This document shows positions 4,190 to 28,044 of a DNA stretch of 44,267 nt, piece after piece (within the stretch, counting starts at the first letter, position 1; each line of letters starts with the position of its first letter). The stretch covers positions 1 through 44,267 of the forward strand of contig JAABSM010000027.1 of assembly GCA_011390365.1 (NCBI GenBank), in the 5' to 3' direction. Source of the stretch: Gammaproteobacteria bacterium. GTDB lineage: Bacteria > Pseudomonadota > Gammaproteobacteria > Chromatiales > Chromatiaceae. The position numbers and the translations under genes were made by a program. The notes under the pieces are model-generated. The model worked only from the letters and a program-made list of their open reading frames with translations. It searched no databases and was not told the origin of the DNA.

Positions 4190-4212
4190 GTGGTTTCCTG
4201 ATATCGCCCGCA

Positions 4213-6911: not shown

Positions 6912-7358
6912 TCAGGCGTCTCCGCGAGGCACCTTGCCCCGTAGCTTCTTGATCGCACCTCGCCGGTTCTTCTTGTCCAGGCGGCGCTTGCGTGCGCCGC
7001 CGCTGGGACGGGTAGGGATGCGCCGTTTCTCGGTGTGTCCCGCCCGCCGCACCAGCTCTGCCAGGCGTTCCAGCGACTCGATCCGATTCCTCTCCTGACT
7101 GCGGTGGCGGTTCGCCTTGATGTTGATGACGCCGTCGGCGGTGATGCGCTGATCGTTGAGCGCCAACAGCCGCTGTTTGTAGAACTCCGGCAGGGATGAG
7201 GCGCGGATATCGAAGCGCAGATGGATGGCGGTGCTGCTCTTGTTGACGTGCTGCCCGCCCGGACCTTCCGCCTTGATCCCTTGCAGCTCGATCTCGCCCC
7301 GCGGGATGGTGACGCGGGAGGAGATTTGCAGGGGCGCGTCTCTGTCGTCAATATCCAT
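6912..7358 (-). CDS. arfB: alternative ribosome-rescue factor / peptidyl-tRNA hydrolase ArfB
   Basis: ArfB (YaeJ) hydrolyses peptidyl-tRNA on ribosomes stalled without a stop codon. The catalytic GGQ lies at residues 34-36 inside EGPGGQHVNKSSTAIHLRF, the release-factor-like domain. The C-terminal third is strongly basic (EKRRIPTRPSGGARKRRL, then KKNRRGAIKKLRG), the tail that enters the empty mRNA channel. At 148 aa it is the usual size and too short for a standard release factor. The ATG at 7358 is preceded by AAGGAT. It is the last gene of a tamB-tamA-arfB run, 15 bp after tamA. Confidence 0.93.
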   Translation of the reverse strand: MDIDDRDAPLQISSRVTIPRGEIELQGIKAEGPGGQHVNKSSTAIHLRFDIRASSLPEFYKQRLLALNDQRITADGVINIKANRHRSQERNRIESLERLAELVRRAGHTEKRRIPTRPSGGARKRRLDKKNRRGAIKKLRGKVPRGDA

Positions 7359-7373
7359 ATCCTTGCCCGCGCC

Positions 7374-9245
7374 TCAGAATTCCGGTCCGATACGAAAATG
7401 GATGCGCCAGGGGCTGCCCTCGTCGTCCAGCGCGAAGGCGAGGTCCAGGCGCACCAGTCCTACCGGTGAGTACCAGCGCCCGCCGATTCCGGCCCCCGAT
7501 TTCAGGCCTGGGTCACTGAAGTCATTGAAGGCGTTGCCGATGTCATAAAAGGCGGCGACGCTCCAATCCGGCAGGATCTTCTTTTCATACTCGATACTGC
7601 CCACCAGCAGGTGTTTGCCGCCGGTGATGACGTCATCACCGACCAGGGATTCATAGGCGTAACCGCGCACGGTGCTGTCGCCGCCGGTGCGAAACTCGTA
7701 GCTCTCCGGGTACTGGTTGAAGGTCATGCCGAGAATGGCGTGACTCTCGACGTCGGTCCAGGCGGCCTGGCCTCTGGCGATGATGCGGTCATTGCCGAAA
7801 AGCTCACGAATATAGATCCCACCCAACTGTGCCTGGAAGAAGGAGACGTTGGAGATCGCGCCCTCCACCGCGCCGCGCATTGCCAGTGACAGGTACTCCC
7901 CGTCGCTGGGGAAGATCGGGTCGTTGCTGCGCTGGTAGATCCATTTCACCTCCGGGACCAGGGCCTGGAAGTCCGGGTTCAGCGTGGTCCGTTCATCTCC
8001 CAGGATCTGGCTGATGGTCTTCTGATTTCCTCCCGGAAGGTGGCCGAACAGCACCTCGAAGATATCATATCGGTCGGTGATCAAGCCGATGGATAAGATC
8101 TCTTCCAGTTCGATTCCGAACAGCTGGCGGGGGTGGTGCAGGGCGATCCGCAGTTGCTGGCTCGACAGGCGTGTCTCGTCCCCCTCTTCGAGTCCGATAT
8201 CATCATGGCCCAGGGTCTTGCCCTCGTATCGGGCCTCCAATGCCAGATAGGTGTTCTGTACAGGCTGGATGGGGATCTGGTAATTGAGGTTGGCGATCAG
8301 CTTGTTCTTTTCCTCTACCGCCAGCGCCCCGAGGTTGAAGTGGTGGCCGCGGCGGGTGAGGTAGCGGCGTTTCCAGTCGACCCGCAGGCCCGCCCCGGAG
8401 TCAGTGCCGTAGCCAAGGCGGAAGCGGTATTTGTTGGGCAGGGCGGGGGTGAGCTGGATCTCCAGCGGTACCTGGTTTGCGGCGTTGGCTTGCGTCTCAT
8501 CGGCGCGGATCTTGACCCCGTCGAAGTAGCCGCTGGAGGAGAGCTCCCGGCGCAGCGATGCCAGCCTCTCCCGGGTCAGCGGGGTATCCTGATCGAAGGT
8601 GAGATAGCGGCGAATGAAGTCATCGTCGAACAGCCCTTGTTCGATACGGGCATCGCCGAAACGGTAGCGGGGGCCGGTTTCCAGATGCAGGAGAACGCTG
8701 GCGCTTTGCGTATTCGGATCCACCTCCACGCGACTGACCGGGTAGTTGGCGTCCAGGTAGCCGTTGTCATGGGCAAAATCGAGCAGCGCGGCCTTGGCCG
8801 TGTCATAGTCGGCATGGATCAGCGGCGCATCCCTGGCGAGGGGGAGGTCGTCCAGGGTTGGTTGCCACAAGGCCTGGTTTTCGTCGACGCCAATGAGGCG
8901 AATATCCAGCCTCCGGATGTGTACTCGTGGCCCTGCATCCACCCGATAGGTGGCTCGCCAACCCTCGCGGTCGGGCCTGGGGGCCTCCAGCTCGCCGTTT
9001 ATCTCGGGATTGTAGTATCCAAAGGGTTGCAGGGCGGTGCGGATCTCCCGCTCCGCCTGGCGGTGCAAGTGGCGCAGGCGTTCGACCGTAAACCCGGGCA
9101 ACTGGCGGCGCTGTTCGACGCTGAGCAGCGCCAGCACATTGTCGCGCAGCGGCGCTTCGAGCCCCTCCACCCGCACCTCCAGCGCGACGGCGATGGCGGA
9201 TGGCGGGAAGGCCGTCAGCAGACAGAGAAGCGCGGCCCGGAACAT
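7374..9245 (-). CDS. tamA: outer-membrane translocation and assembly module protein TamA
   Basis: TamA is an Omp85-family outer-membrane protein that works with inner-membrane-anchored TamB in outer-membrane assembly and lipid transport. A signal peptide (MFRAALLCLLTAFPPSAIA) is followed by POTRA domains to about residue 260, then a 16-stranded barrel. The conserved loop-6 motif is visible as GGDSTVRGYAYESL, and the chain ends in a barrel signature with a C-terminal Phe (FRIGPEF). The start at ATG 9245 gives 623 aa, close to the family size. tamB ends 10 bp upstream, so the genes are co-transcribed, but in the order tamB-tamA rather than the more familiar tamA-tamB. Confidence 0.93.
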   Translation of the reverse strand: MFRAALLCLLTAFPPSAIAVALEVRVEGLEAPLRDNVLALLSVEQRRQLPGFTVERLRHLHRQAEREIRTALQPFGYYNPEINGELEAPRPDREGWRATYRVDAGPRVHIRRLDIRLIGVDENQALWQPTLDDLPLARDAPLIHADYDTAKAALLDFAHDNGYLDANYPVSRVEVDPNTQSASVLLHLETGPRYRFGDARIEQGLFDDDFIRRYLTFDQDTPLTRERLASLRRELSSSGYFDGVKIRADETQANAANQVPLEIQLTPALPNKYRFRLGYGTDSGAGLRVDWKRRYLTRRGHHFNLGALAVEEKNKLIANLNYQIPIQPVQNTYLALEARYEGKTLGHDDIGLEEGDETRLSSQQLRIALHHPRQLFGIELEEILSIGLITDRYDIFEVLFGHLPGGNQKTISQILGDERTTLNPDFQALVPEVKWIYQRSNDPIFPSDGEYLSLAMRGAVEGAISNVSFFQAQLGGIYIRELFGNDRIIARGQAAWTDVESHAILGMTFNQYPESYEFRTGGDSTVRGYAYESLVGDDVITGGKHLLVGSIEYEKKILPDWSVAAFYDIGNAFNDFSDPGLKSGAGIGGRWYSPVGLVRLDLAFALDDEGSPWRIHFRIGPEF

Positions 9246-9255: not shown

Positions 9256-12200
9256 CTATTTTTCCAACACATAGGAGAAGGTGATGACGTTGTCCGATTC
9301 GCCGACCTCGGCCTCGACGCCGAAGTTGTGCTTGATCTGATAGCGCAGATTGAACGCGCCGCTGTTGTCGAGGAGGTCCACATCATAACCGACATAGAGG
9401 TTCGGGCGAAGATAGGTGCCGAGGCCCAGGCTCTGGCCGCGGTTGTCGGGGGCGGTGCCGGTGAGGATGTAGGACATCACCGCCGACTGGTCGAGTTCCG
9501 GCTCGGAAAAGAGGCGCAGATCCAGCTTCTCCGGGGTGCCGGTGATGTGGATGCCGGCGGCGCTGACCTGGGGGTCGTCGTAGATCCGGCGTACCGCGCG
9601 CACGTCGATCTCCGGCTTGTTGGCGGGGACGTTGCTGAACAGCAGGCGGCCCTGATTGATCTCCAGATCCTGGCCGAACGAGCGGTAAGTGCCGTCGACG
9701 ATACGGATTTCGCCATCGGCGATGGGAATCAGCTCGCGGCTCTCGATGTCATGACGCAGCCGCACGGCGCCTTCGAGGCGGCTGCGAAAGCCCACCGTAT
9801 CGACGAAGACCTTCGTCCCCAGTCGGACCTCCACGTCGGTATCGAGCAGCAGTTCGGTTTTCAGGGGCTGTATGGCGACGGCATCGGCGGGCGCCTCCCT
9901 GCCGACGATCACTACATCCGAAGAGGGCAGGGTGGCGCTCTGTCGCGGGGTCGCGGCGCGCGCCTCGCCGGAGGCGACCTTGCCGCCGACCATGTCGATG
10001 ACGCTGATCTGGGGGGTGATGGATACCACCGGCAGGGTGATGCTGCCGCGGGCGTGAATCGACTCCGGCGAGGCTCGGAGCTGTAGCTCGGGGGAGATCA
10101 CCGCCTTGGCGTCCGGGGTGTCGATCACCTTGAAGGCGCGGCCATTGATGTTCAGATCCGCCTGTTGCCGCTGGATGTCGATGCGGCCCTTGACCGCCAG
10201 TTCGCCATCTCCCGATTTCGCCCCCAGCTCCAGGTTCCACAGCGCGGGATTGTCCGCGTCGGTGACCGCGGCGAGGGTGATCTCCCGCAAGGCGAGCCCG
10301 AGTCGCGGCAGGGTCGCGGCCATCTCCTGACCAAGTAGCTTGCCCTCGATTCGGGGCGTTTCCAGATCGCCGCCGAGGGTCAGGTTGGACTGGATCGAGC
10401 CGCTCGCCTCGCCCAACGCGGGGACGAAGGCGGTAAGGACATTGATGTCGGCGATATCGGCGATGAACTGGCCCTGGATCGGTTGTTTTGCATCCGGGGG
10501 CAGCGCGGTCAGGCCGGGCATGCTGAATTCGCCGCTGATCCGGCTGTTGTCGAGGAGTCCGAGTTGCAGGTTCGCGCTGAGGCCGGTGTCGTTGACGCGG
10601 GCGAAGATCTCGCCGCCGCGGTGCCTGAGGTCCTTCTTGCCCTGCTCATGGGGTACCCGGATAACCCCTTCGCTGATTGAGAACACCGCGTCGGCGGTGA
10701 TCTCGCCGCGCGTGCCGAGTTCACCCTTGATGTCGCCCCCCAGGGTCGCCTCGATATTCGGGTTGAGCCAGCTGGCGGGCAGGTTTTCCAGCGAGGCCAG
10801 AAACGAGGTTCCGCGCGCCGCCGCCCACTCCAGCGCGGCGCAGAGGGCGGCGTCGCCGCCATCCCGCAGGCAGATGCGGGACAAGCTGGCGGCTTGGGAG
10901 GAGAGCGCCAGTTCCGCGGGCTGGGCGGCGCGCCAGTCGCCAAAACCGCCGCTGGCGAGTTCGACCGTCTCGATCCGGCCGTTCCAGCGGGCGCTGTCGA
11001 GGTCAAAGCCGCCGACCAGATTCAGGGCGAGTTGGCGTTGTTCGTCGACGCGTCCGTCCACCGCGATGCGATGCTCGCCAATCACCCCATCGGCGCTGAC
11101 CGAGACCCGTTCGAGGACCGCCACGTCATCCATCAGCAGGGGGCCGGCATTCAGGGCCACTCTTACCGCTTCGCTGCCCAGCGGGTCGATCGCCATGTCG
11201 AGATCGAGGTTGCGCAGTCTGCTGTCGTTGTAGCTCAGCTCCTTCCCCTTCAGTCTGGCCGAGATGGCCGGCGCATTGAGGGGGCCGGCCAGGGCCCCCT
11301 CGCCGGCGAGGGCGCCCTGGCCGCCGGGCAGGAGTTCGTCGATGGCCGGCAGATCGATCCGCCATTTCGCTTGCAGGGTGTCGTCGGCCAGCCTTCCCTC
11401 TGCTTCAATGAGATTGTCATTGGAGCGCAACCGGAAGGATTTGAGCTGGTACCCGGAATCGCCGGATTCCGCCTCCGCTTCCACCTCCAACGGGTAACCG
11501 CGCAGGGTGCCGACGATCGGGCCAAGATGGAGGGTAGCCGGAATGCCGCCGTCCGCGGCGAGCGCACCCTGGGTGCTGGCGCTCAGGCGGATCTCGCCGG
11601 GAAGCTCGACCCACTGCTCGCCGGGATTGAGCGACTCCCCCTCCAGATCGAACTGCCAGCTTACCCGGGGTGACCACCCCAGTTCACCCGCGCCGCGGAT
11701 CTCGCCGCCGAGGGTCTCGCCCACCAGGGAGGCGATGTGAAAGCCCGTGTCATCACCGTTGCCGCTCAGGGTCCAGACGCCCTGGGGGATATCCTTGCCG
11801 AAGAGCTCCGCCTTCAGGGTGGTTTGGTAGTGTCGGGCGCTGCCGTTGAATGCCAGCTCTCCGGCGGGGGTATTGATCAGCGCCGGTTCGTTGGATAACG
11901 GCCAGCGCAGGTTTTCCCACGCTGCCGCGGCGTTGATCGTGGGCAAGCCCTCGTCATTCTTCAGCAGCCCCTCGGCGGTGGCCTGTAACGCCGCTTCCAT
12001 CGCCGGGAGTTCGAGGGTGAGTTTCCGAACCTCAAAACGCTCCCCCTCGAGTCGGGCCATCAGCGTGAGATCGGCCGGCATCTCGGCGCTCCAGTCGGGA
12101 ACCGCCTTGGCGAGATGGATGGCCTTGCCTTGCAGATCGACGCGGGCGGAGAGCGTAGGCGTCCAGGTGGTCGAGGCGTTGCCGCTGAGGGTCCCCTGGG

Positions 12201-13701
12201 GCAATTGGCCAAGCAGATCGGTAATCTCGAACCGGGTCTCCCCGCCCTTACCCTCGATGCGCCATTGGCTGGGGGGGAGCGGGTCCCCCTCCAGTTGGCC
12301 GTTCATGGTCAGGGCATAATCCTGGGGAACGCCCTTCAGGTTCAGGCTTCCAGCAAGGCTTTGCACCAGGATCGATTCGCCCTGCAGCGGCCAGCGCAGC
12401 CGGCGCCAGCTCGCGGCGAGATCCAGTTCGGGCGTGCCGCCGCTGATCTGGTCGGCCGACCCGCTCAGACTCAGGATCGCCTGCTCCGGCAAATGGAGGT
12501 CGAGGGCTTCGATGCGCAGGCGCTCGCCGGCGACCGCGAAGCTGCCCGAAAGATCCAGTCGCGCCTTGCCCAGCGTCTCCTCCAGGCCCTCGGCGGCGAG
12601 GGCGGGAGTCAGTGCTTTGGCGTCCAGATTCAGCGAGCCAGTGCGCGCTTCGATCTGGTAGTCGCCACTGACCAGCACCTCGCCGCCAAGGATCTCTCCG
12701 CGAAGCCTGGCGAGGGTGATCTCCTCCTGATTGGCGGTGACGCTCATTTTCCAGGCGCCGGGAGGGATCCCCATGCCGGAGTGGCTGAGGGCGATCTCGG
12801 CGTTGGCGGACGTCAGGTCGCCGTGAAGCTCCAGCTCGGGATGGGTGATTTTCAGCGTCTCCGCCGGATCCTCGCCAACCGGCGGCCAGCTGATCTCCTC
12901 GCTGGTCATCGTCGCCTGCCAGCGCGGGTCGGACAAGGGCGCCTCGACGGAGGCGCGGGTATCGACGAGGTAGGGCTGGCGTAACTGGTGGGTGAGGTTG
13001 AGCCGGTCGAGATCCCCGCTTATCGCGGCCTCGCCCTGGAAGGTCGCCAGCTCATGGGCGAAGCCCCAGTCGATTTGCAGATCGATGGGGAAGGGGGCCT
13101 GACTACCCACCGCGCCGCGCAGGGCGAGGGTGATGGACGGCGCGGCGAGCTCCACCGAGTCGATTCGCAGGGAGGTTTCATCGCTGCTCAGGGAGAGGGC
13201 GAGCTTGTCGATACGCTGATTTGGCCCGCCGTCGGCGATCACGACATCCTCGATCACCACCTGATCGATACGCAACCGCAGCGGCAGCTCGATGCGTTCG
13301 GGCAGCGCGATGGGTCCCGATTCCTGTCCCTTGTCATCCTCCGCCGCGGCGGGCGGAGGCGTCAGCTCCCAACCGCGCAAGGAGAGGGTCTCGATGTGCA
13401 GGGTGCCGTCCAGCAATGCCCAGGGGCGCCAGTCCAGCACGCTCTGTTCAATGCTCAGCTCCAGTCCGCCGTGCTGGACCCGTAGGGAATCCAGTTCCAC
13501 CCGGTCCAGCAGATTGCCCTTGATTCCCGCGACGCTTACCATGCCCTGGGTGTGACGGAGCGCGATTTCCACCAGCCAGCGACTGCCCGCCTCGCTGGCA
13601 AGCAGGGCGAACGCCAACGCCGGCGGCAGGATAGTGAGCATGACAAGGGTAAGGAGCAGACGCTTGAAGATACGCATAACGCGGGATCGGGGTGTTACCA
13701 T
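9256..13701 (-). CDS. tamB: translocation and assembly module / AsmA-like lipid-transfer protein TamB
   Basis: A 1481-residue protein with one N-terminal membrane anchor (RIFKRLLLTLVMLTILPPAL), then a long repetitive beta-rich region that forms the hydrophobic groove of the AsmA-like family, and a C-terminal TamB (DUF490) domain ending IKHNFGVEAEVGESDNVITF. It spans the periplasm and partners with TamA or acts in phospholipid transport. The start is uncertain: the GTG/ATG cluster allows 13701 or ATG 13677 (MRIFKRLLL), and neither has a good ribosome-binding site. The length is at the high end of the family. It is the first gene of tamB-tamA-arfB and is divergent from the lectin gene. Confidence 0.93.
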   Translation of the reverse strand: MVTPRSRVMRIFKRLLLTLVMLTILPPALAFALLASEAGSRWLVEIALRHTQGMVSVAGIKGNLLDRVELDSLRVQHGGLELSIEQSVLDWRPWALLDGTLHIETLSLRGWELTPPPAAAEDDKGQESGPIALPERIELPLRLRIDQVVIEDVVIADGGPNQRIDKLALSLSSDETSLRIDSVELAAPSITLALRGAVGSQAPFPIDLQIDWGFAHELATFQGEAAISGDLDRLNLTHQLRQPYLVDTRASVEAPLSDPRWQATMTSEEISWPPVGEDPAETLKITHPELELHGDLTSANAEIALSHSGMGIPPGAWKMSVTANQEEITLARLRGEILGGEVLVSGDYQIEARTGSLNLDAKALTPALAAEGLEETLGKARLDLSGSFAVAGERLRIEALDLHLPEQAILSLSGSADQISGGTPELDLAASWRRLRWPLQGESILVQSLAGSLNLKGVPQDYALTMNGQLEGDPLPPSQWRIEGKGGETRFEITDLLGQLPQGTLSGNASTTWTPTLSARVDLQGKAIHLAKAVPDWSAEMPADLTLMARLEGERFEVRKLTLELPAMEAALQATAEGLLKNDEGLPTINAAAAWENLRWPLSNEPALINTPAGELAFNGSARHYQTTLKAELFGKDIPQGVWTLSGNGDDTGFHIASLVGETLGGEIRGAGELGWSPRVSWQFDLEGESLNPGEQWVELPGEIRLSASTQGALAADGGIPATLHLGPIVGTLRGYPLEVEAEAESGDSGYQLKSFRLRSNDNLIEAEGRLADDTLQAKWRIDLPAIDELLPGGQGALAGEGALAGPLNAPAISARLKGKELSYNDSRLRNLDLDMAIDPLGSEAVRVALNAGPLLMDDVAVLERVSVSADGVIGEHRIAVDGRVDEQRQLALNLVGGFDLDSARWNGRIETVELASGGFGDWRAAQPAELALSSQAASLSRICLRDGGDAALCAALEWAAARGTSFLASLENLPASWLNPNIEATLGGDIKGELGTRGEITADAVFSISEGVIRVPHEQGKKDLRHRGGEIFARVNDTGLSANLQLGLLDNSRISGEFSMPGLTALPPDAKQPIQGQFIADIADINVLTAFVPALGEASGSIQSNLTLGGDLETPRIEGKLLGQEMAATLPRLGLALREITLAAVTDADNPALWNLELGAKSGDGELAVKGRIDIQRQQADLNINGRAFKVIDTPDAKAVISPELQLRASPESIHARGSITLPVVSITPQISVIDMVGGKVASGEARAATPRQSATLPSSDVVIVGREAPADAVAIQPLKTELLLDTDVEVRLGTKVFVDTVGFRSRLEGAVRLRHDIESRELIPIADGEIRIVDGTYRSFGQDLEINQGRLLFSNVPANKPEIDVRAVRRIYDDPQVSAAGIHITGTPEKLDLRLFSEPELDQSAVMSYILTGTAPDNRGQSLGLGTYLRPNLYVGYDVDLLDNSGAFNLRYQIKHNFGVEAEVGESDNVITFSYVLEK

Positions 13702-14461: not shown

Positions 14462-16129
14462 ATGCTGAAGTACCTCGCCTTGATGGCCGCGGTCCTCCTC
14501 GCGCAGGCATGCGGGGAGGGCGGCCGGGAGCCGCCCCGTCCCGCCCAGGCGAGTCGGGGCGCCGCCGATCTCTCCAGTGACCCCCAGCAACCGCCTGCCG
14601 ACACCCTGCGCATCCCCCTGAACGGCGCGTTGAGCACCATCGACCCGGGGTTGACCGAGGATACCGGCGCCATCGAGATGGTGGAGCAGCTCTTTCTGGG
14701 GCTGACCGATTTCGATCACCAGACCTTTGAGGTGCTGCCGGAGCTGGCCTCGGATTGGGAGGCGAGCGACGACGGCAAGGTCTACCGCTTCAATCTGCGC
14801 CAGGATGCCCTCTGGAGCAACGGCGAGCCGGTCACCGCCCATGACCTGGTGTGGGCGATCCGACGCAATATCGACCCCGACACCGCCAGTCCCTACGCCT
14901 ACATGCTGTTCGTGCTGGAGAACGCCCAGGCGATTCACGAAGGGGAATCCGATGACATCGAGAGCCTGGGGGTGCGAGCGATCGACGATCATGCGGTCGA
15001 ATTCCGGCTGGTAGAGCCCGCGTCCTATTTTCCGGCCATGGTGGGGGTGTGGACCTATCGCCCCCTGCCGCGGGCGGTGATTGAGCAATTCGGCGATCGC
15101 TGGACCGCACCCCGTCATATCGTCACCAATGGCTCCTACCGGGTCGCCGAGTGGAAGCGCAACAACTTCATGGTGCTGGAGAAGAATCCCTACTACTACG
15201 ACGCCGAGCGGGTGGCGATCGAGAGGGTCAAATACATCGTGGTGCCCGAAAGCTCCATCGGCCTCGCCATGTACAAGAGCGGCGCGCTGGATATTCTCGG
15301 GGCGGGTTACCTGCCGCTGCCGGCGGCGGAGATCCCGCGCATCCTCGCCGATGCCGAGTTGAGCCAGGAGTACCACAACGAACCCAACCTGTGTACCTAC
15401 TACTACGGTTTCAACAACAGCAAACCGCCCCTCGATAATCCGCTGGTGCGCAAGGCGATCTCCGCCGCCATCGATCGGCAACTACTGATCGATGTGGTCA
15501 CCCAGGGCGACGAAGAGCCGGCCCACACCTTCACCCGTCCCCCCATCTTCGGCTCGATCAGTCCCGACAGCGGCATCGGCATCCGTTTCGATCCCGAGCA
15601 GGCACGGGCCTGGTTGGCCGAGGCCGGCTATCCGGATGGCGAGGGCTTCCCGGAGCTGGGCCTCTATTTCAACACCTCCGAGACCCACCAGCGCATCGCC
15701 CGCGCGGTACAGACCTTTCTCGACCACTATCTCAATATCCGCGTAGCCCTCAAGCCCCGGGACTGGGATACCTTCATGTCCACTCTCACGCCCCCCAACG
15801 AGGTGGATATCTATCGTTTTGCCTGGTGCGCCGACTATCCGGATGCCAATAACTGGCTCAACGAGGTCTTCCATCCGGACAAATCCGCCAATCGGATCCA
15901 GTGGTCCAACCCCCGTTTCGCCGCATTGGTGGAGGAGGCGAGCGGCGCGACCGACCCCGAGGTACGCAAGCGGCTCTATGAAGAGGCGGAGCGGATCCTG
16001 GTCGAAGAGGCGGCGGCGATCATGCCCCTCTACTTCTTTACCGCACCCTATCTGGTGAAGGGCCGGGTTCAGGATTGGTATCACATGCCCCTGGGCGGCC
16101 AGCACATTCGCAACTGGAGGCTGCAATGA
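14462..16129 (+). CDS. lipoprotein extracellular solute-binding protein, family 5 (peptide/oligopeptide type)
   Basis: A 555-residue homologue of OppA/DppA-type binding proteins. The lipobox LAQAC places the lipidated residue at Cys17, so the mature protein is membrane-tethered in the periplasm. The SBP_bac_5 domain covers roughly residues 45-540, with characteristic elements LASDWEASDDGKVYRFNLR, LWSNGEPVTAHDLVWAIRR and YPDANNWLNEVFH. No permease or ATPase genes of an Opp/Dpp transporter are nearby. Instead it is directly preceded by a lectin and overlaps (ATGA) a ligand-gated channel fusion. That context suggests it presents a peptide-like ligand to a receptor rather than feeding an ABC importer. 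This role is inference. Confidence 0.88.
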   Translation: MLKYLALMAAVLLAQACGEGGREPPRPAQASRGAADLSSDPQQPPADTLRIPLNGALSTIDPGLTEDTGAIEMVEQLFLGLTDFDHQTFEVLPELASDWEASDDGKVYRFNLRQDALWSNGEPVTAHDLVWAIRRNIDPDTASPYAYMLFVLENAQAIHEGESDDIESLGVRAIDDHAVEFRLVEPASYFPAMVGVWTYRPLPRAVIEQFGDRWTAPRHIVTNGSYRVAEWKRNNFMVLEKNPYYYDAERVAIERVKYIVVPESSIGLAMYKSGALDILGAGYLPLPAAEIPRILADAELSQEYHNEPNLCTYYYGFNNSKPPLDNPLVRKAISAAIDRQLLIDVVTQGDEEPAHTFTRPPIFGSISPDSGIGIRFDPEQARAWLAEAGYPDGEGFPELGLYFNTSETHQRIARAVQTFLDHYLNIRVALKPRDWDTFMSTLTPPNEVDIYRFAWCADYPDANNWLNEVFHPDKSANRIQWSNPRFAALVEEASGATDPEVRKRLYEEAERILVEEAAAIMPLYFFTAPYLVKGRVQDWYHMPLGGQHIRNWRLQ

Positions 16130-18405
16130 GCGCCCTGGCGAGCAAGGCGCTGAGCCGGCGTTGGTGGTCTAAGCACTTCCTGATCGCGACTCTGTTGTCG
16201 GTTATTGGCCTCGGATTCGTCATCGTGGAGATCCGAGATCTGCTCGACCAGCGGCAACAGATGATCACCATCGCGCTGGTCGCCCCCATGAGCGGAAAGG
16301 ATGCCGAGGTCGGGCGCGAGATGGCGCGTTCGGTGCGCCTCTACCTGGATCAGCTTGAAGAGGATGCCCGGATCGAACTGCGGATCCTTGACGACAAGGG
16401 AGACCCGCGCCAAGCGGAACAGATCGCGCGACAGCTTGCCGGCGATGATGACGTCGCCCTGGTGCTGGGCCATTACGCCAAGGAAGCGGCGCTGGCCGCC
16501 GCGCCGATCTATCGGGAGAACGGCCTTCCCGCGATCACCGGAACCGTCACCGCGGATGCGCTGATTCTGGATAATTCATGGTATTTCAGTCTATTGCCGG
16601 TGGATAGCAGCCAGGGCGCCCAGATCGCGGCCTTTATCAACAAGGTGCTGGGGGTGCGCAAGGCGAGTATCGTTTATGACAGCGACGGCTACGGAAGCGC
16701 CTTGCTCAAGGGTTTTGAAGCCACCGCCGACGGCCTCGGCATGGAGCTGGTCTCGCGCATCGCATTTGACCGCCAATCCGGCGGCCTTGACGCCGAACTG
16801 GAGTCGGTAGCGGCGACGCTGCGCGCCATGGGAGACCCGGGCATGGTCTTTCTCGCCACCCACCCCGCGGAGGGGGTGAAGTTGATCACCTCGTTGTATG
16901 GCGAGGGACTCCAGTTCTTCGGCCCGGACTCCTTCAGCGAAGAGCGTTTTCTCGAACTGCTCAATACCTATCCCCAGGAAAAGGTGAAGCCAGGCTACTT
17001 CATCGACGGGGTTTTCTCCACCGTGCCCATGATCCCGGATATCGCGCAGCGCCAGGCCAAGGAGTTCCACTACCATTTCGAGCGCCGCTATCAACAGGCC
17101 CCGGGCTGGATCGGTGCGGCATATCGGGACGCCGCCATGCTCGGCGTGAGCGCGATCACGAAGGCGGCGAGCGAAGGGCGCAGCGGCACGCCCGCCTCGC
17201 TGCGTGCCGCGGTCAAGTTCCACCTGTCACAGACCAACATGCCGGAACGATCCATGTTCGGGGTAATGGGGAATATCCAGTTCGATGCCCACGGCGCCGC
17301 CGTCAAGCCCCTCCCCGTCGCCGTTTTCAAGGGTCACAACCGCGTCTCCTACCGTGAGCAACTGCAACTGGTGCGGGATATTCGGCGTATCGAAAACCCC
17401 CTGCGGGAGATCCTCGAGGGGCGATTGCTCTATCAGAACGACCGCTTCAATCACCGTACGAAGGTGGTCTATACCGGCGTCGACATCAACGAGATCACCA
17501 ATCTGGATGTTAGCGACTCCTCGTTTACCGCCGACTTCTACATCTGGTTTCGTACCGAACTCGAGCTGGATCCCAGGCAGATCGAGTTCCTCAATGCCGC
17601 GGAACCGGTGGAGTTGGGTGACCCGGTCGTGGAAGAGCTGAACGCGGACGGCTTGATCACCTATACCTTTCGAGTAAGGAGTCAATTTCGCGGCGACTTC
17701 GATTTTTACCGCTACCCCTTCGATAGCCAGGAACTGCCGATACGTTTCAAACACAGCACGCTGACGCGGCCTGAACTGATCTTCGTGCCGGACGTGATGG
17801 GCATGCGCATGGGCGAAGACAAGGGGGGCGCGCGGGAAGCGGGCTTTCAGGCGATCAGCGGCTGGAACTACTACAAGGCCCTCTTCTACCAGGATGAGAT
17901 CAGCAACAACTCGTCACTGGGCATAGAGAAATTCTTCGAGGACAGCTATGCCCTGGAGTTCTCCCGCTTCAATGCGACGGTCACCATCGCCCGGGACGCC
18001 ACCAGCTTTATCCTCAAGAACCTCTTCCCCATGTTCTTCGTTATCCTGCTCTCCTATGTCACCTTCTATATCAGTAACTACAACCCGCGCCTGAACATGG
18101 TCGCCTCGGCGCTGCTTACGGCGGCATTCTTCCACTTGAAGCTCTCCGCCGGCATCCCGGTTGGCTACCTGGTCGCCATCGAATATTTCTTCTTCGCGGT
18201 CTACATCCTGATCGGTATCGCCCTGCTGGCCTCGATCACCACCCACCGCCTCTTCGAGTATGCCAGTAGCAAGGGAGAGGCGGGCGCCCGCGCGGGTATT
18301 TGGGCGATCAAGATCGACCTGATCGGGCGCATTATCTACCCGATCCTGGTGGTAGTGATGATATACGCCGTGATCGCGAGGTTTACCGGGTTTGGCTGGG
18401 GGTGA
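16126..18405 (+). CDS. periplasmic-binding-protein / pentameric ligand-gated ion channel fusion receptor
   Basis: A 759-residue membrane protein in three parts. An N-terminal hydrophobic segment (HFLIATLLSVIGLGFVIVEI, about 17-36) acts as anchor or uncleaved signal. Residues about 47-405 form a type-I periplasmic-binding fold of the branched-chain amino-acid receptor class (ITIALVAPMSGKDAEVG, then VALVLGHYAKEAALAAAPIY). Residues about 430-620 match the extracellular beta-sandwich of Cys-loop-like channels, including the YPFDSQELPIRF turn (PFD-x-Q). Four transmembrane helices follow: M1 FILKNLFPMFFVILLSYVTF, M2 around NMVASALLTAAFFHLKLSAG, M3 VGYLVAIEYFFFAVYILIGI, M4 IGRIIYPILVVVMIYAVIAR. The disulfide of eukaryotic Cys-loops is absent, as in other bacterial members. 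The start overlaps the upstream stop (ATGA). The ligand and ion selectivity are unknown. Confidence 0.85.
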   Translation: MSALASKALSRRWWSKHFLIATLLSVIGLGFVIVEIRDLLDQRQQMITIALVAPMSGKDAEVGREMARSVRLYLDQLEEDARIELRILDDKGDPRQAEQIARQLAGDDDVALVLGHYAKEAALAAAPIYRENGLPAITGTVTADALILDNSWYFSLLPVDSSQGAQIAAFINKVLGVRKASIVYDSDGYGSALLKGFEATADGLGMELVSRIAFDRQSGGLDAELESVAATLRAMGDPGMVFLATHPAEGVKLITSLYGEGLQFFGPDSFSEERFLELLNTYPQEKVKPGYFIDGVFSTVPMIPDIAQRQAKEFHYHFERRYQQAPGWIGAAYRDAAMLGVSAITKAASEGRSGTPASLRAAVKFHLSQTNMPERSMFGVMGNIQFDAHGAAVKPLPVAVFKGHNRVSYREQLQLVRDIRRIENPLREILEGRLLYQNDRFNHRTKVVYTGVDINEITNLDVSDSSFTADFYIWFRTELELDPRQIEFLNAAEPVELGDPVVEELNADGLITYTFRVRSQFRGDFDFYRYPFDSQELPIRFKHSTLTRPELIFVPDVMGMRMGEDKGGAREAGFQAISGWNYYKALFYQDEISNNSSLGIEKFFEDSYALEFSRFNATVTIARDATSFILKNLFPMFFVILLSYVTFYISNYNPRLNMVASALLTAAFFHLKLSAGIPVGYLVAIEYFFFAVYILIGIALLASITTHRLFEYASSKGEAGARAGIWAIKIDLIGRIIYPILVVVMIYAVIARFTGFGWG

Positions 18406-18597: not shown

Positions 18598-19539
18598 CTA
18601 TTCCTGCTCCCGATCAAACGCCGCCACCAGCGGCATGCCGACCTCGTCCATCAGTTGCGCCCGAATCGACCAGAGTTGCCTTGCATCCGGCTGGTCGCCG
18701 ATGCGCTGGTTCAGGTCGGTGATGGCGTCGTACCAGATGCCGGCCTTGGCGTAATCTTCGAACCTCTCCCGCGCCTCAAGGTTCGGTTCGTAGCGGATGG
18801 TGGCGCTGCCCATCAGGTCGGCGGAGCGCTCGACGGGGTCGAGGATGATGAACACAAACCATTCGTAATCCATGCCCGGCTCCAGGGCGAGTTCGAACTC
18901 GGCGAGGTCGATGGCATGGACACCGGCGAGAAACGCGCCGGTCTCTTCGGGAGGATAGAGGATAACCTCCAGGTCGGGATCGGCGGCCATGGGACGGTTG
19001 ATAGTGAAATTGATGGGGCCTTCCCAGGCGTGGGAGAGGTACCAGTGCAACACCGGCTGGGGATCGGCGCTAAGACCGGTCTGCTTGGGGGCCAGCGGCG
19101 CGAGGATGTCAGGCGGTATCATCTCTTCCGCGGCGACCCCTTCCGCCATCTCGCCGGGTCCGCGGGCCACCCCTCTGGCTACGCCGCGGGAAACGCCTCT
19201 CGCCACGCCCCGGGATACCCCTCTTGCCACGCCGCGGGCAACGCCCCGGGATACCCCTCTTGCCACACCGCGGGAGACGCCCCTGGATACTCCTCTGGAC
19301 ACTCCTCTGGACACTCCCCTGGCGACGCCGCGCGACACCCCGCGGGAGACACCCCGGTTGACGCCGCCAATCGCCTCTTCAAGATCGGTAACCAGACCGC
19401 CCTCGCGGCGGCGAATGGGGGCGTCGGCATCGGGGGGCGCGTAGAGTTGATTCCCGCTGTCGCCGGGTTCGGCGAGGGAGAGGTTGCCCGCGCAAAGCAG
19501 TAGCAGGGCGAGGGAAAGGGTGGTGAAAAACGTTTTCAT
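18598..19539 (-). CDS. secreted DUF928-family protein with an RGV(S/A) tetrapeptide repeat
   Basis: A 313-residue exported protein. It has a signal peptide ([20 protein letters not shown], cleavage near LSLA-EP), a spacer, sixteen consecutive R-G-V-(S/A) tetrapeptides at residues 62-125 closing with RGPG, then a domain at about 140-270 with the DUF928 pattern ([20 protein letters not shown] ... [19 protein letters not shown]). The DUF928 function is unknown; it is often found in secreted proteins of cyanobacteria and gammaproteobacteria. The ATG at 19539 has AGGAGAG upstream. It lies 54 bp downstream of another secreted unknown on the same strand, so they may be one operon. Confidence 0.8.
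19165..19356 (-). repeat. sixteen tandem 12-bp units encoding RGV(S/A)
   Basis: The 192-bp tract encodes sixteen RGVS or RGVA tetrapeptides. Synonymous codons vary freely between units: Arg appears as CGG, CGC, AGG and AGA, and Val as GTC, GTG, GTA and GTT. The amino-acid pattern is kept while the DNA has drifted, which argues for selection on the peptide rather than a fresh slippage expansion. A few adjacent units are still nearly identical (AGAGGAGTGTCC), so expansion has not fully stopped. Confidence 0.9.
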
Positions 19540-22449: not shown

Positions 22450-25400
22450 ATGAGTCTGATTCACAAAATCCGATTTTCCGTTTTTCTGGTCTTCTGGTAT
22501 TTCGCCACTAGCGCCATGGCGGATTGCATCGGCGAATCGCCAGTGATTACTGGCAAGGACTACCTATCGGATTCAGATGTCCGTTGCGTCGGCGCCGCTT
22601 CCGTTACCATGGGCGATAGCCGGATTCGGTCGGGCGCAAGCGTCGTGGTCTACGCGCCCAGGGTCAGGCTGGAATCTCCCGTAACCATTGAAAGCGGCGC
22701 CAACGTGCGTCTCTCCGCAATCAGCCCGCAAAAACATTCCCCGCGGGTAGTCAACGAAGGGGCATCCCAGTCCATCACCCTGCCATCCGGGTCCGGCACC
22801 TACACGCTTGGAACCCCGGCCAATGGCAGCCTCTCCGGAACCGCGCCGAATCTTAGCTACACTCCGGAAATCGGTTTCATCGGTCAGGACCAATTCACCT
22901 ACGTGCTGGATGATGGCGTCAATCCGCCGACGGTTGGCGTGATTAACCTCGATATCCAGCAGTACCTCGCCAGTCCGGACATGGTGCAACTGGTCTCCGC
23001 TTCCTCTTCAGTGACGGACCGGATCACCGTCAACTGGTTGCCGACCCAGGATGACGCCACGCCCCACGAGCAGTTGATCTACAAGGTACACATCTCCACC
23101 GAAGAGGGCTTTCAACCCGCCGAAACCAATGTCGCGGCCCAGACCACCGGGGGTATCAGCGCCCTGTTGACCGGTTTGCAGGCCGATACCCGCTACCACT
23201 TGATGGTATCGGCCACCGATGGCGATGGCAATCAGGCCTGGTCCAACCCCCTCAGCGCTCGGACCATCGCCGCCCCCGCCAGCCGCACGACGCAAGCCGT
23301 CGTTGAACAACAGGAGTCCAACGCGCCCATCGTCACCGAGGGCAGTGTAATCTACACCAGCACCGGCACGGTTCCCGCGGTCGGGGATGTCATTACCTCC
23401 GAAGAGAACGGCGGTTATCTGCGGCGGGTAACCGCCGTCAATGAATCAAGCGGCACGGTTACCGTGACGACGGAACCGGCGACCCTGGGGGAGGTCTTCA
23501 ATGACCTCGACCTCTCCACCAACGTCACCCTTGCCCCGCTGCCCGCAACCGCCAGCCGCATGCAAAACCGCAGCTACCGATCCGCCAGTGGCGAGATCTT
23601 CACCGCCCGCGAGCTGGAGTGGTCCAAGACCGGTTTCACCCTCATTGATGCCAACCCCCATACCCTGCGTCGTCGCTCCCTGACCAGCGACCTCTCCGCG
23701 CAAACCCTGCAGCGCGCCCAGATCGACATCGACGGCCAGTACCAGACCATCACCGGCGAGTATCTGCGGGTTCGCGCCCCCGCCTATGTCGCCGCCGAAC
23801 CAGGCAAGCGACGCAGATTCGATGTCAATGTGGAAGAGGCCTGGGATCGCCAGAACTATTTCGGCAGCTACACCCACATGCAGCTGTGCAAGATCGAATT
23901 TCACGACTTCAGCCACCCCGATTCGGGCCTGGAATCCAGTGCCAGCAACCCAGCCGTAGCAGACTACATCCAGGGTTCAGGCAACGAGGGCTATACCGGC
24001 TATGCCAGTATCGGTTGGCAACCCGGCACGGCGCAAGTGGACCCCAAGGGTCGCCCTTACGAACTGGTGCTGCGTGCCTACATCGACGAAGAGGACGAAA
24101 ACTGCAATGGCGACGATGCCTTTGGGACCTGGGAAGAGGTGCTCGATATCGAAATCCCCATCTATGTCACCAAGGGTTCCGCGGCCGCCAAGGAGGAGAA
24201 CCAGCTGACCTTCGAAGGCACCGCCGATTTCTCCATCACCAACGAGGCCGATTTCTCCATCACCCCGGAGATCCAGGTCGGGGCCACCATCCGCTCCGGC
24301 GATCTCAAGAACGCGGAGGTCAAGGTGCTCGCCCCCATGGACTTCAGCAACGTCCTCACCGTCTCCGCCTCCGGTTCCGCGTCGGTCAACGCCGAAGCCT
24401 ACCTGCTCAACCCACGCACCTTTATCAAGGTCTTCGTCGCGGGCGGTGTGCCGGTGGTGATTACTGGGGAGTTCTCCATCAAGGCGACCATGGAGGGCAA
24501 TGTCAGCGGCGCCATGCAGTTGCAGAAGACCATCGAGGTCAATATCCCCGCTGAATTCGGCCTGACCTATGATGATAGCCGCACGGAAAAATGGCAGGTG
24601 GTGCGCAAATTCGAGCCGGAATACCGCTTTCGCATTCAGGGTGATGCCGAGGCCACCGCCGACCTGACCCTGAAACTGGTCCCTGACCTGCGCATCAGCT
24701 TCTACGACGCCGCTTCGGCACGCATGCTGGCGGAGCCCTACCTCTATGCCGAGGCGGGGATTGAGGGCCATTTTGTGTATGAGCAAAACAGCGGTGGCCA
24801 GATGACCGATCTGGACTACTGGTTCAACACCCTGGAGGCGGGCATGGGCGTCGACCTGCGCCTCTACGCCGGGCTCGATATCTTCGGCTACAACATCGTC
24901 GGCTATCCCCGCGCCGCCGACGGGGTGGACGACATCGATAACTTCGCCCTGTTTCATCCATTACCCAGAACCCCCATCATCGGTCTGCCCAGCATCCACG
25001 CCACCCAGCATAGCGAACGCCACCCCAGCGACTCCCGCGCCATCCTCATCAGCGGCGGCAGCGAGGATCTGCCCAATCCCTTCGGCGAGGGCAGTCTCAA
25101 CCCCTTCAAGCACTGGAGCGGGGCCAAGGTGCTCAGCTTTCAGACCGACCACAGCCTCATCCCCAGCGCCGATCCGCTGGATGGCGAATACTGGTTCAGT
25201 TACGACCAGCCGGGGGACTACACGGTGCGTCTGGGCGGCTACAGCAAGCTCGGCTGGTTCGTGCGCCAGATCGCCGAGACCGAGATCACCATCACCGATA
25301 GCGATAACGACGGCATGGCGGACCAGTGGGAAGAGCGCTACGGCATCAGCGATCCCAATGGCGATCCGGATGGCGATGGCCTGAGCAATCTGGAGGAGTA

Positions 25401-28044
25401 CCAGCAACGCAGCTTCCCCCTGATCCGCGAAGACGCCCAGGATCGAGACGGCGACGGCATGCCGGACGCCTATGAGATGGAACACGGCCTCGACCCGGAT
25501 GACCCGCGAGATGCCTGGTACGACCACGACAACGACGGCATCAGCAACCTGCGTGAATACCTCACCGGCGGCAATCCGTCCCAGGCCGACACCGCCGCTG
25601 GGCAATTGAACGATACCGGCATCGTCGCCTGCGCCGACGGCAGCAGCAACGGTCTGCCCTGCCCGGTGGCGGATTATCCCAATCAGGACGCCGAGCATGG
25701 TGCGGATGTGAGCCAGAATCACCCCGCCGACGGTCACGCCGGTTTCAGTTTCACCAAGCTCGACAACAGTGGCAACCCCCTGCCCGATAGCGCCTCCAGT
25801 TGGTCTTGCATAGAGGATAACCGCACCGGCCTGATCTGGGCGGTCAAGAGCAACCAGAGCGACCTGCACGGCAAGGACGACACCTACACCTGGTACGATA
25901 CCAACGCCCTCACCAATGGCGGCAACTCGGGCAACCAGAACAGCAGCGGCGATACCTGCCACGGCTATCAGGCGGGCGTGGCCTCCAGCTACTGCAACGC
26001 CGAGGCCTATATCGAGCGGGTCAATAATCAAGGGCTATGCGGGGCCAGCGATTGGCGCATGCCCCAGGCCATGGAGCTTCAGGGCATCGCCGCCCTGGAC
26101 CGCACCAGCCCGGCCATCGATCACAACTACTTCCCCTACACCGCCTCCAGCAACTACTGGACCGCGCTACCCATCAGCGAGACCAGCGGGCGGGTGGTCT
26201 CCTTCCAATACGGCGGCACCAGCAGCGCCAGCAAGGGCTCCAGCTACCGTATCCGCCCGGTGCGCGGCAACTTCGCCACCAACCTGCGCCGCGCCGACGG
26301 CGGCTACCCCGACAGCGACGGCGACGGCATGCCCGACTACTTTGAACGGGCCTTTGGCCTCAATCCCTACGCCACCTTTGATGCCTGGGGCGACCTGGAC
26401 GGCGACGGCTTCACCAATCTGGGCGAATACCAGCAGGGCACCAACCCCGTCATCGCCAACCGCCCCAGCGTGCGTCAGCTCAACGACACCGGCATCACCG
26501 GTTGCGCCGACGGCGGCAGCAACGGCCTGGGCTGCGGGATTGCCGACTATCCCAACCAGGATGCGGAGCAGGGCGGCGATACCACCCACAACGACGGCAG
26601 TGACGGCCACGCCGGTTTCAGCTTTACCAAGCTCGACGACAATGGTTATCCGCTGCCCCGCGATGCCCAGAGTTGGAGCTGTGTGCGCGACAACCTCACC
26701 GGACTCACCTGGCAGGGCAAGACCCTTCAACCCGGTCCCCACCATCGCGACGACACCTTCACCTGGTACAACACCGATACCAGCAGCAACGGCGGCAACC
26801 CAGGCAACCAGAATCCCAGCGGCGTTAGCTGCCACGGCTACGATGCCGCCAATGCCGCCAGCTTCTGCAACGCCGAGGCCTACATCCAGCGCATCAACGC
26901 CCTGAACCTGTGCGGCAAGAGTGATTGGCGACTGCCCCAGGCGATGGAGCTGCAAGGCATCGCCGCGCTGGATCGCACCAGCCCGGCCGTCGATCACACC
27001 TACTTTCCCTATACCGCCTCCAGCAACTACTGGACCGCGCTGCCCATCAGCGAAACCAGCGGGCGCGTGGTCTCTTTTCAGTACGGCGGCACCAGCAGCG
27101 CCAGCAAGGGCAGTTCCTACAGAATTCGCCTGACCAGCGGCGACTTCGCCACCAACCTGCGTCGCGCCGACGGCAGCTATAGAGACGGCGACAGCGACGG
27201 CATGCCCGATTTTTACGAACTGCAACATGGTCTCGACCCCGACCTGGCCCAAGACGCCCTATCGGACAAGGACGGCGATGGGCGCAATAATCTGAGCGAA
27301 TACCGCAACGGTACCAACGCCAGCATCCCCAATCGCCCCACCGGCAACCGCCTCAACGACACCGGCATCACCGCCTGCGCCGACGCCGGCGGCAACGACC
27401 TGGCCTGCGGCATCGCCGCCTATCCCAATCAGGACGCCGAGCAGGGCGCGGATACCACCCATAACGACGGCAGCGACGGCCACGCCGGTTTCAGCTTCAC
27501 CAAGCTCGATAACAGCGGCAACCCCCTGCCCAGAGATGCCCAGAGCTGGAGCTGCGTCAAGGACAATGTCACCGGTCTGATCTGGGAGGCCAAGACCGCG
27601 CCCGGCGGACTCCATCAGGCGGGGGACACCTTCAGTTGGTACAACACCGACGATCAGACCAATGGCGGCAACCAGGGCAATGACGGCGCCGGGTCGGATA
27701 GCTGCTACGGCGTAAGCGTTCACACCCCTGGCTGTTTTGAGCCCTCACCCCGGCCCTCTCCCGGCGGGAGAGGGAGTTTTTCGGTCAGGGGTGTGAACGC
27801 ATGCGTACTGGGAGCGGGACTATCGGGGCGACCTACGGGTCATGAAACGCACGGCGCGCAAGAAATTGCAAGGCGCCAAGCGGCGGATGAAAGAGTGGAT
27901 CCGGAGCAACCGCCACCTCAAGGGACGGTACTTTATCCGGGCGCTCAATCGAAAGCTTGTCGGCCACTACAACTACTACGGCATCCGCAGCAACGAACGA
28001 TCCGTATACAACTTCTTCCAGTTTACCGTAGAATGCGCCTATAA
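22450..28044 (+). CDS. giant secreted Ca-binding-repeat / DUF1566 (Lcl C-terminal) protein, 3'-broken
   Basis: Secreted protein with a signal peptide (RFSVFLVFWYFATSAMA-DC). Domains in order: a cadherin-like Ig segment (about 115-175, GTYTLGTPANGSLSG ... YVLDDG); a fibronectin-III-like segment (about 190-275); a large beta-rich region of unknown fold (about 300-840); Ca-binding DxDxDG repeats of thrombospondin-3/EF-hand type (DSDNDGMADQWEERYG and following); then three units of [Ca repeat + DUF1566] of about 290 aa. DUF1566 occurs at the C-terminus of Legionella Lcl adhesin and in many surface proteins. Native coding stops making sense at about 27711 in the third DUF1566. The last 111 codons read through a palindromic element and an out-of-frame group II intron remnant. 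It is probably a truncated adhesin or surface protein. Confidence 0.8.
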   Translation: MSLIHKIRFSVFLVFWYFATSAMADCIGESPVITGKDYLSDSDVRCVGAASVTMGDSRIRSGASVVVYAPRVRLESPVTIESGANVRLSAISPQKHSPRVVNEGASQSITLPSGSGTYTLGTPANGSLSGTAPNLSYTPEIGFIGQDQFTYVLDDGVNPPTVGVINLDIQQYLASPDMVQLVSASSSVTDRITVNWLPTQDDATPHEQLIYKVHISTEEGFQPAETNVAAQTTGGISALLTGLQADTRYHLMVSATDGDGNQAWSNPLSARTIAAPASRTTQAVVEQQESNAPIVTEGSVIYTSTGTVPAVGDVITSEENGGYLRRVTAVNESSGTVTVTTEPATLGEVFNDLDLSTNVTLAPLPATASRMQNRSYRSASGEIFTARELEWSKTGFTLIDANPHTLRRRSLTSDLSAQTLQRAQIDIDGQYQTITGEYLRVRAPAYVAAEPGKRRRFDVNVEEAWDRQNYFGSYTHMQLCKIEFHDFSHPDSGLESSASNPAVADYIQGSGNEGYTGYASIGWQPGTAQVDPKGRPYELVLRAYIDEEDENCNGDDAFGTWEEVLDIEIPIYVTKGSAAAKEENQLTFEGTADFSITNEADFSITPEIQVGATIRSGDLKNAEVKVLAPMDFSNVLTVSASGSASVNAEAYLLNPRTFIKVFVAGGVPVVITGEFSIKATMEGNVSGAMQLQKTIEVNIPAEFGLTYDDSRTEKWQVVRKFEPEYRFRIQGDAEATADLTLKLVPDLRISFYDAASARMLAEPYLYAEAGIEGHFVYEQNSGGQMTDLDYWFNTLEAGMGVDLRLYAGLDIFGYNIVGYPRAADGVDDIDNFALFHPLPRTPIIGLPSIHATQHSERHPSDSRAILISGGSEDLPNPFGEGSLNPFKHWSGAKVLSFQTDHSLIPSADPLDGEYWFSYDQPGDYTVRLGGYSKLGWFVRQIAETEITITDSDNDGMADQWEERYGISDPNGDPDGDGLSNLEEYQQRSFPLIREDAQDRDGDGMPDAYEMEHGLDPDDPRDAWYDHDNDGISNLREYLTGGNPSQADTAAGQLNDTGIVACADGSSNGLPCPVADYPNQDAEHGADVSQNHPADGHAGFSFTKLDNSGNPLPDSASSWSCIEDNRTGLIWAVKSNQSDLHGKDDTYTWYDTNALTNGGNSGNQNSSGDTCHGYQAGVASSYCNAEAYIERVNNQGLCGASDWRMPQAMELQGIAALDRTSPAIDHNYFPYTASSNYWTALPISETSGRVVSFQYGGTSSASKGSSYRIRPVRGNFATNLRRADGGYPDSDGDGMPDYFERAFGLNPYATFDAWGDLDGDGFTNLGEYQQGTNPVIANRPSVRQLNDTGITGCADGGSNGLGCGIADYPNQDAEQGGDTTHNDGSDGHAGFSFTKLDDNGYPLPRDAQSWSCVRDNLTGLTWQGKTLQPGPHHRDDTFTWYNTDTSSNGGNPGNQNPSGVSCHGYDAANAASFCNAEAYIQRINALNLCGKSDWRLPQAMELQGIAALDRTSPAVDHTYFPYTASSNYWTALPISETSGRVVSFQYGGTSSASKGSSYRIRLTSGDFATNLRRADGSYRDGDSDGMPDFYELQHGLDPDLAQDALSDKDGDGRNNLSEYRNGTNASIPNRPTGNRLNDTGITACADAGGNDLACGIAAYPNQDAEQGADTTHNDGSDGHAGFSFTKLDNSGNPLPRDAQSWSCVKDNVTGLIWEAKTAPGGLHQAGDTFSWYNTDDQTNGGNQGNDGAGSDSCYGVSVHTPGCFEPSPRPSPGGRGSFSVRGVNACVLGAGLSGRPTGHETHGAQEIARRQAADERVDPEQPPPQGTVLYPGAQSKACRPLQLLRHPQQRTIRIQLLPVYRRMRL
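25606..27711 (+). repeat. three tandem DUF1566 units (870-bp period), last one truncated
   Basis: Units begin at about 25606, 26476 and 27346, each with (Q/R)LNDTGI-x-(A/G)CAD and YPNQDAE. Units 1 and 2 share near-identical protein blocks such as FPYTASSNYWTALPISETSG and SFQYGGTSSASKGSSYRIR. Each unit is introduced by a Ca-binding DGDGMPD motif. Unit 3 stops after GSDSCYG, where a palindromic element begins. The repeats are internal tandem duplications within a coding sequence. Confidence 0.85.
27716..27800 (+). mobile_element. MITE-like palindromic element, copy A
   Basis: A perfect 15-bp inverted repeat (GCGTTCACACCCCTG at 27716-27730, its complement at 27786-27800) bounds an 85-bp segment with an inner hairpin CTCTCCCGGCGGGAGAG. 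The same organisation, with shared blocks GGCTGTTTTGAGCCCT and GAGAGGGAGTTTTTCGG, occurs inverted at 41356-41447. A related element with clear target duplications is at 30679-30834. Copy A sits exactly where the giant gene stops and the intron remnant starts. Confidence 0.7.

Follow-up and report, generated by a model that had tools for sequence, protein, structure and literature searches.

A Cys-loop-type channel with a periplasmic-binding-protein head in a Chromatiaceae contig, and relatives that carry the same head on an MscS pore

Introduction

Among the bacterial pentameric ligand-gated ion channels (pLGICs), GLIC, ELIC and DeCLIC have been studied mostly as models, and what bacteria use these relatives of nerve receptors for is largely unknown. 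To our knowledge, GLIC, ELIC and sTeLIC have no N-terminal head. Here we describe a gene for such a channel with a head, at positions 16126–18405 of a 44,267-nucleotide stretch of gammaproteobacterial DNA (contig JAABSM010000027.1 of assembly GCA_011390365.1, family Chromatiaceae; the whole stretch is called the window below), together with its gene neighborhood and its relatives in other genomes. Acetylcholine receptor-type ligand-gated ion channels (ART-LGICs) fused to a type-I periplasmic-binding-protein (PBP-I) domain were described in 2004 from the sequences of Magnetospirillum and Bradyrhizobium (PMC549065); a role in chemotaxis was proposed from gene context, and some other bacterial ART-LGICs were reported to have neighbors of the type-II class (PBP-II). 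Domain associations of this kind were stated to be evidenced at the genome level only (PMC4795631), and papers of 2022 and 2025 on DeCLIC (PMC9897478, PMC12664993) single it out as the one pLGIC whose N-terminal domain has been solved or partly characterized.

The window protein resembles the PBP-I-fused ART-LGICs of PMC549065 in that a PBP-I domain precedes a Cys-loop extracellular domain (ECD) and a four-helix pore; as the literature on such bacterial channels goes back to 2004, the protein taken alone is a member of a known but unstudied kind. The locus, where the gene of the PBP-I fusion overlaps one for a PBP-II, is a variant of that kind, a likeness drawn between descriptions and not between sequences. 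With GLIC and ELIC the protein has the fold of ECD and pore and the Pro-loop in common, and with DeCLIC the general plan of a bacterial pLGIC to which a large domain has been added at the N-terminus; however, the DeCLIC domain consists of two jelly-roll lobes (PMC12664993), whereas the window head belongs to the Peripla_BP_6 family. AMPA and NMDA receptors are likewise ion channels with a PBP-I-type N-terminal domain, by analogy only, as their pore is unrelated and their ligand domain is of the PBP-II type (PMC549065). MscS and bacterial cyclic-nucleotide-gated (bCNG) channels share pore and cyclic-nucleotide-binding domain (CNBD) with some relatives of the window protein (L005, L019, L020), which add the PBP-I and Cys-loop head; PBP or Cys-loop heads on an MscS pore were not found in searches of the open-access PubMed Central literature, or in passages of PMC8584932, which is not proof of their absence. 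With one binding protein built in as a head, a second encoded by an overlapping gene and, in one class of relatives, a chemoreceptor-like partner, the channel makes the question of bacterial use testable, and the exchange of the pore under one conserved head is a natural experiment that separates the sensing parts of a Cys-loop receptor from those that couple it to its pore.

Domain Architecture and Fold

The combination of a binding-protein head and a receptor channel in one protein, proposed in an initial annotation of the window, is confirmed. The gene is a single unbroken reading frame for 759 amino acids on the forward strand. The head matches Peripla_BP_6 (PF13458) over positions 2–336 of 343 (E 5.7e-33), and is thus a full-length domain. 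The channel part, for which the annotation had named a beta-sandwich with the motif YPFDSQ and four C-terminal helices in residues 430–759, was recovered by a profile of the subfamily, which matches GLIC with E 2.4e-22 and all four membrane helices (M1–M4) aligned throughout, and by a Foldseek search with the single-chain AlphaFold model, in which the matches listed were pLGICs only. Profile and fold comparison agree that the ECD is a beta-sandwich homologous to known pLGIC members; the motif is the Pro-loop, and the helices of the model agree with the four found by hydropathy and GLIC alignment, with M3 and M4 merged into one long helix in the DSSP assignment. The best pLGIC matches of the single sequence in the Protein Data Bank (PDB) were 6v4a and 9ftg, which we take to be DeCLIC entries. 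By homology, the product is a bacterial relative of animal neurotransmitter receptors with an extra nutrient-binding-protein head; the annotation was also right that bacterial fusions of this type are known (PMC549065). An artefactual fusion or a frameshift between the two domains can be rejected, because the frame is uninterrupted and 23 distinct proteins, counting that of the window, share the domain order.

The hydrophobic helix that precedes the head is probably an uncleaved signal anchor, as judged by eye from the missing signal peptidase motif. Ahead of the pore, Arg623 before M1 is invariant and Pro635 in M1 nearly so (alignment A3, 10 rows). M2, predicted to line the pore, carries Arg655 (0'), Asn657 (2'), Ser661 (6') and Leu664 (9'), numbers that were set by hand on what we take to be the GLIC numbering; in the pore alignment 2' and 6' are polar and 9' is hydrophobic, and no Glu stands at -1' or -2'. 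The described motifs are E-[RK] for cation channels and A-[RK] for anion channels (PMC549065). The pore residues, with Arg at 0' and no Glu at -1' or -2', appear to lean away from cations, and the P-R of this protein is not A-[RK] either.

Survey of Related Heads and the Ligand Pocket

Relatives were collected in several searches. The channel part, searched against 143 relatives, matched 16, mostly channels without a PBP domain; the search gave one protein of the same build (L004) and the three named above, which are longer and have an MscS pore plus a cyclic-nucleotide domain behind head and ECD, in place of M1–M4 (Pfam: MS_channel_2nd in all three, E 5.4e-18 to 1.9e-15; MS_channel_3rd in two; cNMP_binding in all three). 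ECD profile A1 found matches in 18 of 369 genomes of the class and 59 loci in a named genome collection, and profile A3 found matches in 46 of 398 genomes of the phylum. Heads were then counted with home-made profiles wherever a PBP span of at least about 250 residues and an ECD span of 110 were present; identical proteins and shorter pieces were dropped and near-copies kept. Three loci hold genes split over several frames, of which the pieces were searched separately (the substrate-binding-protein gene in L048, the substrate-binding-protein and channel genes in L082, a chemoreceptor-like gene in L147), and L082 was excluded from the counts. The survey yielded 97 distinct heads, of which 23 precede a pLGIC pore, 41 an MscS pore, 31 an MscS pore with CNBD, and two neither; these counts are not frequencies, since the collections are unevenly sampled, the scan of the named collection relied on one ECD motif, and loci were returned for the best matches only. 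Three of the 41 CNBD-less MscS forms are cut short where their stretch ends, and a CNBD may lie beyond that point.

The 23 pLGIC-type heads provide the frame for reading the ligand pocket. The pocket contacts of LivJ are presumably Ser79, Thr102 and Glu226. Their equivalents in the window head are Lys119, Thr142 and Asp268, at positions where 20 of the 23 heads have Ser, 19 have Thr, and 19 have Asp or Glu. The initial annotation had inferred an amino-acid-type ligand from the LivJ-like head; Thr142 and Asp268 fit this suggestion and Lys119 does not, so that an amino acid is only weakly indicated, less so than was stated, and, because Lys119 stands where 20 of the 23 keep Ser, the ligand of this head may be of another kind, or there may be none.

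The same substitution lends some weight to the alternative that the head serves only in assembly or modulation, as the N-terminal domain of DeCLIC may, with the gating signal coming from protons, from divalent ions, or from a small ligand at interfaces of the ECD; DeCLIC is calcium-sensitive, and its N-terminal domain appears to speed gating (PMC12664993, PMC9897478). Against this stand the conservation of the pocket at positions 142 and 268 across the pLGIC-type heads, the jelly-roll build of the DeCLIC domain, which is not a PBP fold (PMC12664993), and the persistence of the head with its ECD even where the pore is a different one. We consider a purely modulatory head rather unlikely, if by no means negligible.

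Gene Neighborhood and Partner Genes

Immediately upstream of the channel gene lies a gene for an OppA-like PBP-II of the SBP_bac_5 family, which the initial annotation had not noted; the MscS-type relatives it could not have seen. The stop codon of the SBP_bac_5 gene overlaps the channel start as ATGA, and the sequence GGAGG ends five bases before the ATG; it begins directly after the stop codon of a lectin gene. Lectin, SBP_bac_5 and channel genes together fill the interval of 13.9–18.4 kb between a TamB-like and a DUF928 gene, with no space for a permease gene. The best NCBIfam match of the SBP_bac_5 protein is an OppA model (E 5e-97, below the cut-off of that model), and by eye it is possibly a lipoprotein. 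The genome of origin (4.26 Mb) has four SBP_bac_5 matches, one match to the ECD profile and four MCPsignal matches.

Flanking genes were read at 30 loci with PBP-headed pLGICs: the window, L047–L052, L082, L106, L107 and the 20 loci L139–L158, which were picked from the phylum scan as matches most of which run through the pore, some such matches (e.g., G542, G565 and G585) being left out. An SBP_bac_5 gene stands directly beside the channel gene in five of the 30, upstream in the window, L048, L050 and L082 and downstream in L151. In L106 the gene directly upstream encodes a PBP-II of the NMT1_3 type, and in Spirulina (L049) both channel genes (1142–4696 and 4783–8346) carry an SBP_bac_1 domain fused behind M4, which gives two different binding proteins per channel.

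Are these neighbors functional partners? OppA-type proteins normally serve ABC importers. The SBP_bac_5 gene could accordingly be an ordinary peptide-uptake component that precedes the channel gene by chance, as its OppA match would have it, and no PBP-II neighbor or fusion was found at 23 of the 30 loci. We regard such a coincidence as unlikely, given the overlap of start and stop codons, the lack of a permease gene between the flanking genes, the same linkage in reversed order in L151, the small number of SBP_bac_5 matches in the genome, and the occupation of the same place by three PBP-II families.

A second kind of partner is a gene resembling methyl-accepting chemotaxis proteins (MCPs), found directly downstream of the channel gene in 15 of the 20 loci L139–L158. 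Of the 14 such neighbors that were scanned, 13 matched MCPsignal with E 0.01 or better; the fifteenth, in L147, is in pieces, one of which matches. All 15 loci come from one class, that of the Magnetococcales (G557), in which 37 of 48 genomes have A3 matches; of the other five loci, L151 lies outside this class and has the binding-protein gene, and L139, L152, L153 and L155 lie inside it and have neither partner. The pattern of partners fits the proposal of chemotaxis and of cooperation with binding proteins made in PMC549065.

On this basis we propose, with moderate confidence, a pentameric channel with a ligand-binding PBP-I head, a second input through the SBP_bac_5 protein, and an ion flux that is read out, probably to steer movement. 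Five subunits would sit in the inner membrane, each with a periplasmic PBP-I clamshell atop a Cys-loop-type ECD. A small solute of the kind bound by the LivJ class would close the clamshells, and the ring of heads would shift the ring of ECDs; the Pro-loop and the pre-M1 segment would relay the movement to the M2–M3 region, and the pore would open or close. By analogy with soluble binding proteins that dock on chemoreceptors, the SBP_bac_5 protein may dock on the ring of heads as a second periplasmic ligand input. The resulting ion flux would change membrane potential or an ion level, and thereby most likely steer movement; in the Magnetococcales class, the same channel type is paired with the MCP-like gene instead.

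Several observations weigh against this proposal, in addition to the Lys119 of the pocket. In the window, the channel gene lacks an adjacent MCP gene. Of the five SBP_bac_5 loci, three (L048, L050, L082) belong to the Beggiatoa–Thioploca group, so that there are fewer independent cases than loci, and in L048 and L082 the SBP_bac_5 gene is in pieces. The MCPsignal scores lie on both sides of the Pfam cut-off of 34.6 bits, with 41.7 in L140, 34.6 in L142, 34.1 in L148, 23.9 in L141 and no match in L150; at least two of the matching neighbors fall under the cut-off. Eight of the 30 loci (L047, L051, L052, L107, L139, L152, L153, L155) showed neither a PBP-II nor an MCP-like neighbor among the open reading frames that were scanned, which were not all of those present, and three of them (L051, L139, L152) end at a contig edge on one side.

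Two of the partner-less loci have other neighbors. In L153 (2818–4026, minus strand) a PBP-less frame of about 400 amino acids with an ECD match, possibly a partner subunit, lies directly beside the PBP-headed pLGIC (4001–6346, minus strand), and a PAS histidine kinase on the other side of the channel. In L155 an Ion_trans gene for a cation channel of the voltage-gated type (6205–7044, minus strand; E 1.8e-43) stands directly upstream of the PBP-headed pLGIC on the same strand.

One Head on Two Pores

In the MscS-type relatives, which often carry a C-terminal cyclic-nucleotide domain, the PBP-I and Cys-loop parts precede an unrelated pore. Identity to the window protein is 27–33% for three MscS-type rows in A1 and reaches, for example, 38% in L055 and L068. 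That the MscS-linked ECD is of the Cys-loop type rests on this direct homology, on the match of its profile to that of PBP-less pLGICs (E 2.5e-19, probability 99.2; as a control, A2 against MCP-like proteins gave probability 0.15, E 0.39), and on its predicted fold, which also supports kinship to pLGICs; sTeLIC was matched only by this ECD. Profile A2 returned from the PDB sequences a single row, an unrelated chain at E 0.11, and Pfam, run on 51 members, assigned no receptor family to any MscS-linked ECD.

The two heads with neither pore are single cases: in L085 (5777–9151) the head leads into a membrane stretch and then a region of the P-loop type (AAA_22, E 3e-4, below the cut-off), with no pore family found, and in L091 (2430–4616; Magnetococcales) into one C-terminal helix without a match to a pore profile. 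They would suit a receptor that does not conduct at all but passes a change of shape on to a signaling partner, for instance an MCP-like protein or an NTPase, a role in keeping with the MCP-like neighbors in 15 of 20 loci. Yet 72 of the 74 heads without a pLGIC pore have another pore, and in the window protein the complete alignment of M1–M4 to GLIC and the polar and hydrophobic positions of M2 speak for conduction; a non-conducting receptor is therefore very unlikely, and a conducting channel is the reading retained here.

The history of the exchange was followed in three trees of the head (71 rows; 76 of the 97 heads; a careful tree of 56 after removal of five long rows and thinning). In all three the pLGIC-type heads form one side of a single branch (SH-like approximate likelihood ratio test, SH-aLRT, 97 and 99, and 100/99 for the careful tree), and a single exchange between pLGIC and MscS pores is therefore enough. 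A number of long branches and unusual compositions drew flags, the window protein's among them. The midpoint root falls among the pLGIC forms in the 76-head and 56-head trees and elsewhere in the 71-row tree; with disagreeing midpoints and no outgroup, a swap from pLGIC to MscS is only suggested.

The Pro-loop of pLGICs rests against the pore domain. The equivalents of Pro531, Asp533 and Gln535 are present in all 23 pLGIC-type rows, and in 12, 7 and 5, respectively, of the 72 MscS-type rows, which suggests that the contact to the pLGIC pore was not kept in the MscS forms and was discarded at the swap. We tentatively see in the PBP-I and Cys-loop ectodomain, with slightly more doubt than conviction, a portable chemical-sensing head that serves two unrelated pores and would gate MscS, perhaps in a ring with seven-fold symmetry; should a ligand gate the MscS forms, they would be chemically opened MscS channels. 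In 11 of the 59 loci of the named collection a head–MscS gene is followed in tandem by a head–MscS–CNBD gene; the order is the same each time, which suggests that the two products may make mixed channels. SBP_bac_5 genes were found near MscS-type heads in none of 79 loci, a set that includes repeats of one gene, 29 loci with flanks of about 1.5 kb or slightly more, and many short contigs.

Other Features of the Locus

Table 1. Features of the window, and loci of MscS-type relatives (positions in their own stretches).
Feature	Position	Strand	Basis or remark
PBP-I-pLGIC gene, 759 aa	16126..18405	+	open frame, Pfam, PDB sequence search, fold
N-terminal hydrophobic helix, residues 18-36	16177..16233	+	hydropathy
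PBP-I domain, residues 47-399	16264..17322	+	PF13458, LivJ-family solved structures
Cys-loop-type ligand-binding beta-sandwich (ECD), residues ~434-622	17425..17991	+	profile to GLIC, AlphaFold, Foldseek
Pro-loop YPFDSQ, residues 530-535	17713..17730	+	conservation in pLGIC-type heads
M1, residues ~628-650, incl. Pro635	18007..18075	+	hydropathy, alignment A3
M2 (predicted pore helix), residues ~655-677	18088..18156	+	subfamily profile aligned to GLIC M2, pore alignment
M3, residues ~682-700	18169..18225	+	hydropathy
M4, residues ~732-750	18319..18375	+	hydropathy
SBP_bac_5 (OppA-like) type-II binding protein, 555 aa	14462..16129	+	PF00496, E 1.5e-86; overlap with channel start
Secreted ricin-B-type beta-trefoil lectin, 182 aa	13913..14461	+	PF00652, E 1.9e-16; signal-peptide-like N-terminus by eye
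TamB-like gene	9256-13701	-	E 2e-175, under the cut-off of the model
DUF928 gene	18598-19539	-	Pfam
PBP-I and Cys-loop head on MscS pore, examples	L005 235-3453 (-), L095 6678-10211, L104 6651-10451		among 72 distinct MscS-type heads
Tandem-pair loci	L055, L057, L062, L063, L065, L066, L074, L076, L077, L078, L080		

One of the four SBP_bac_5 matches of the genome (G000, contig C84, 2754–3764, minus strand) lies inside an open frame of 989 amino acids, and because of this length may be fused to something else. The DUF928 protein holds a long run of repeats, and further downstream in the window (22450–28044, plus strand) a protein of 1864 amino acids combines three Lcl_C stretches, an fn3 domain and four bacterial TSP3 repeats.

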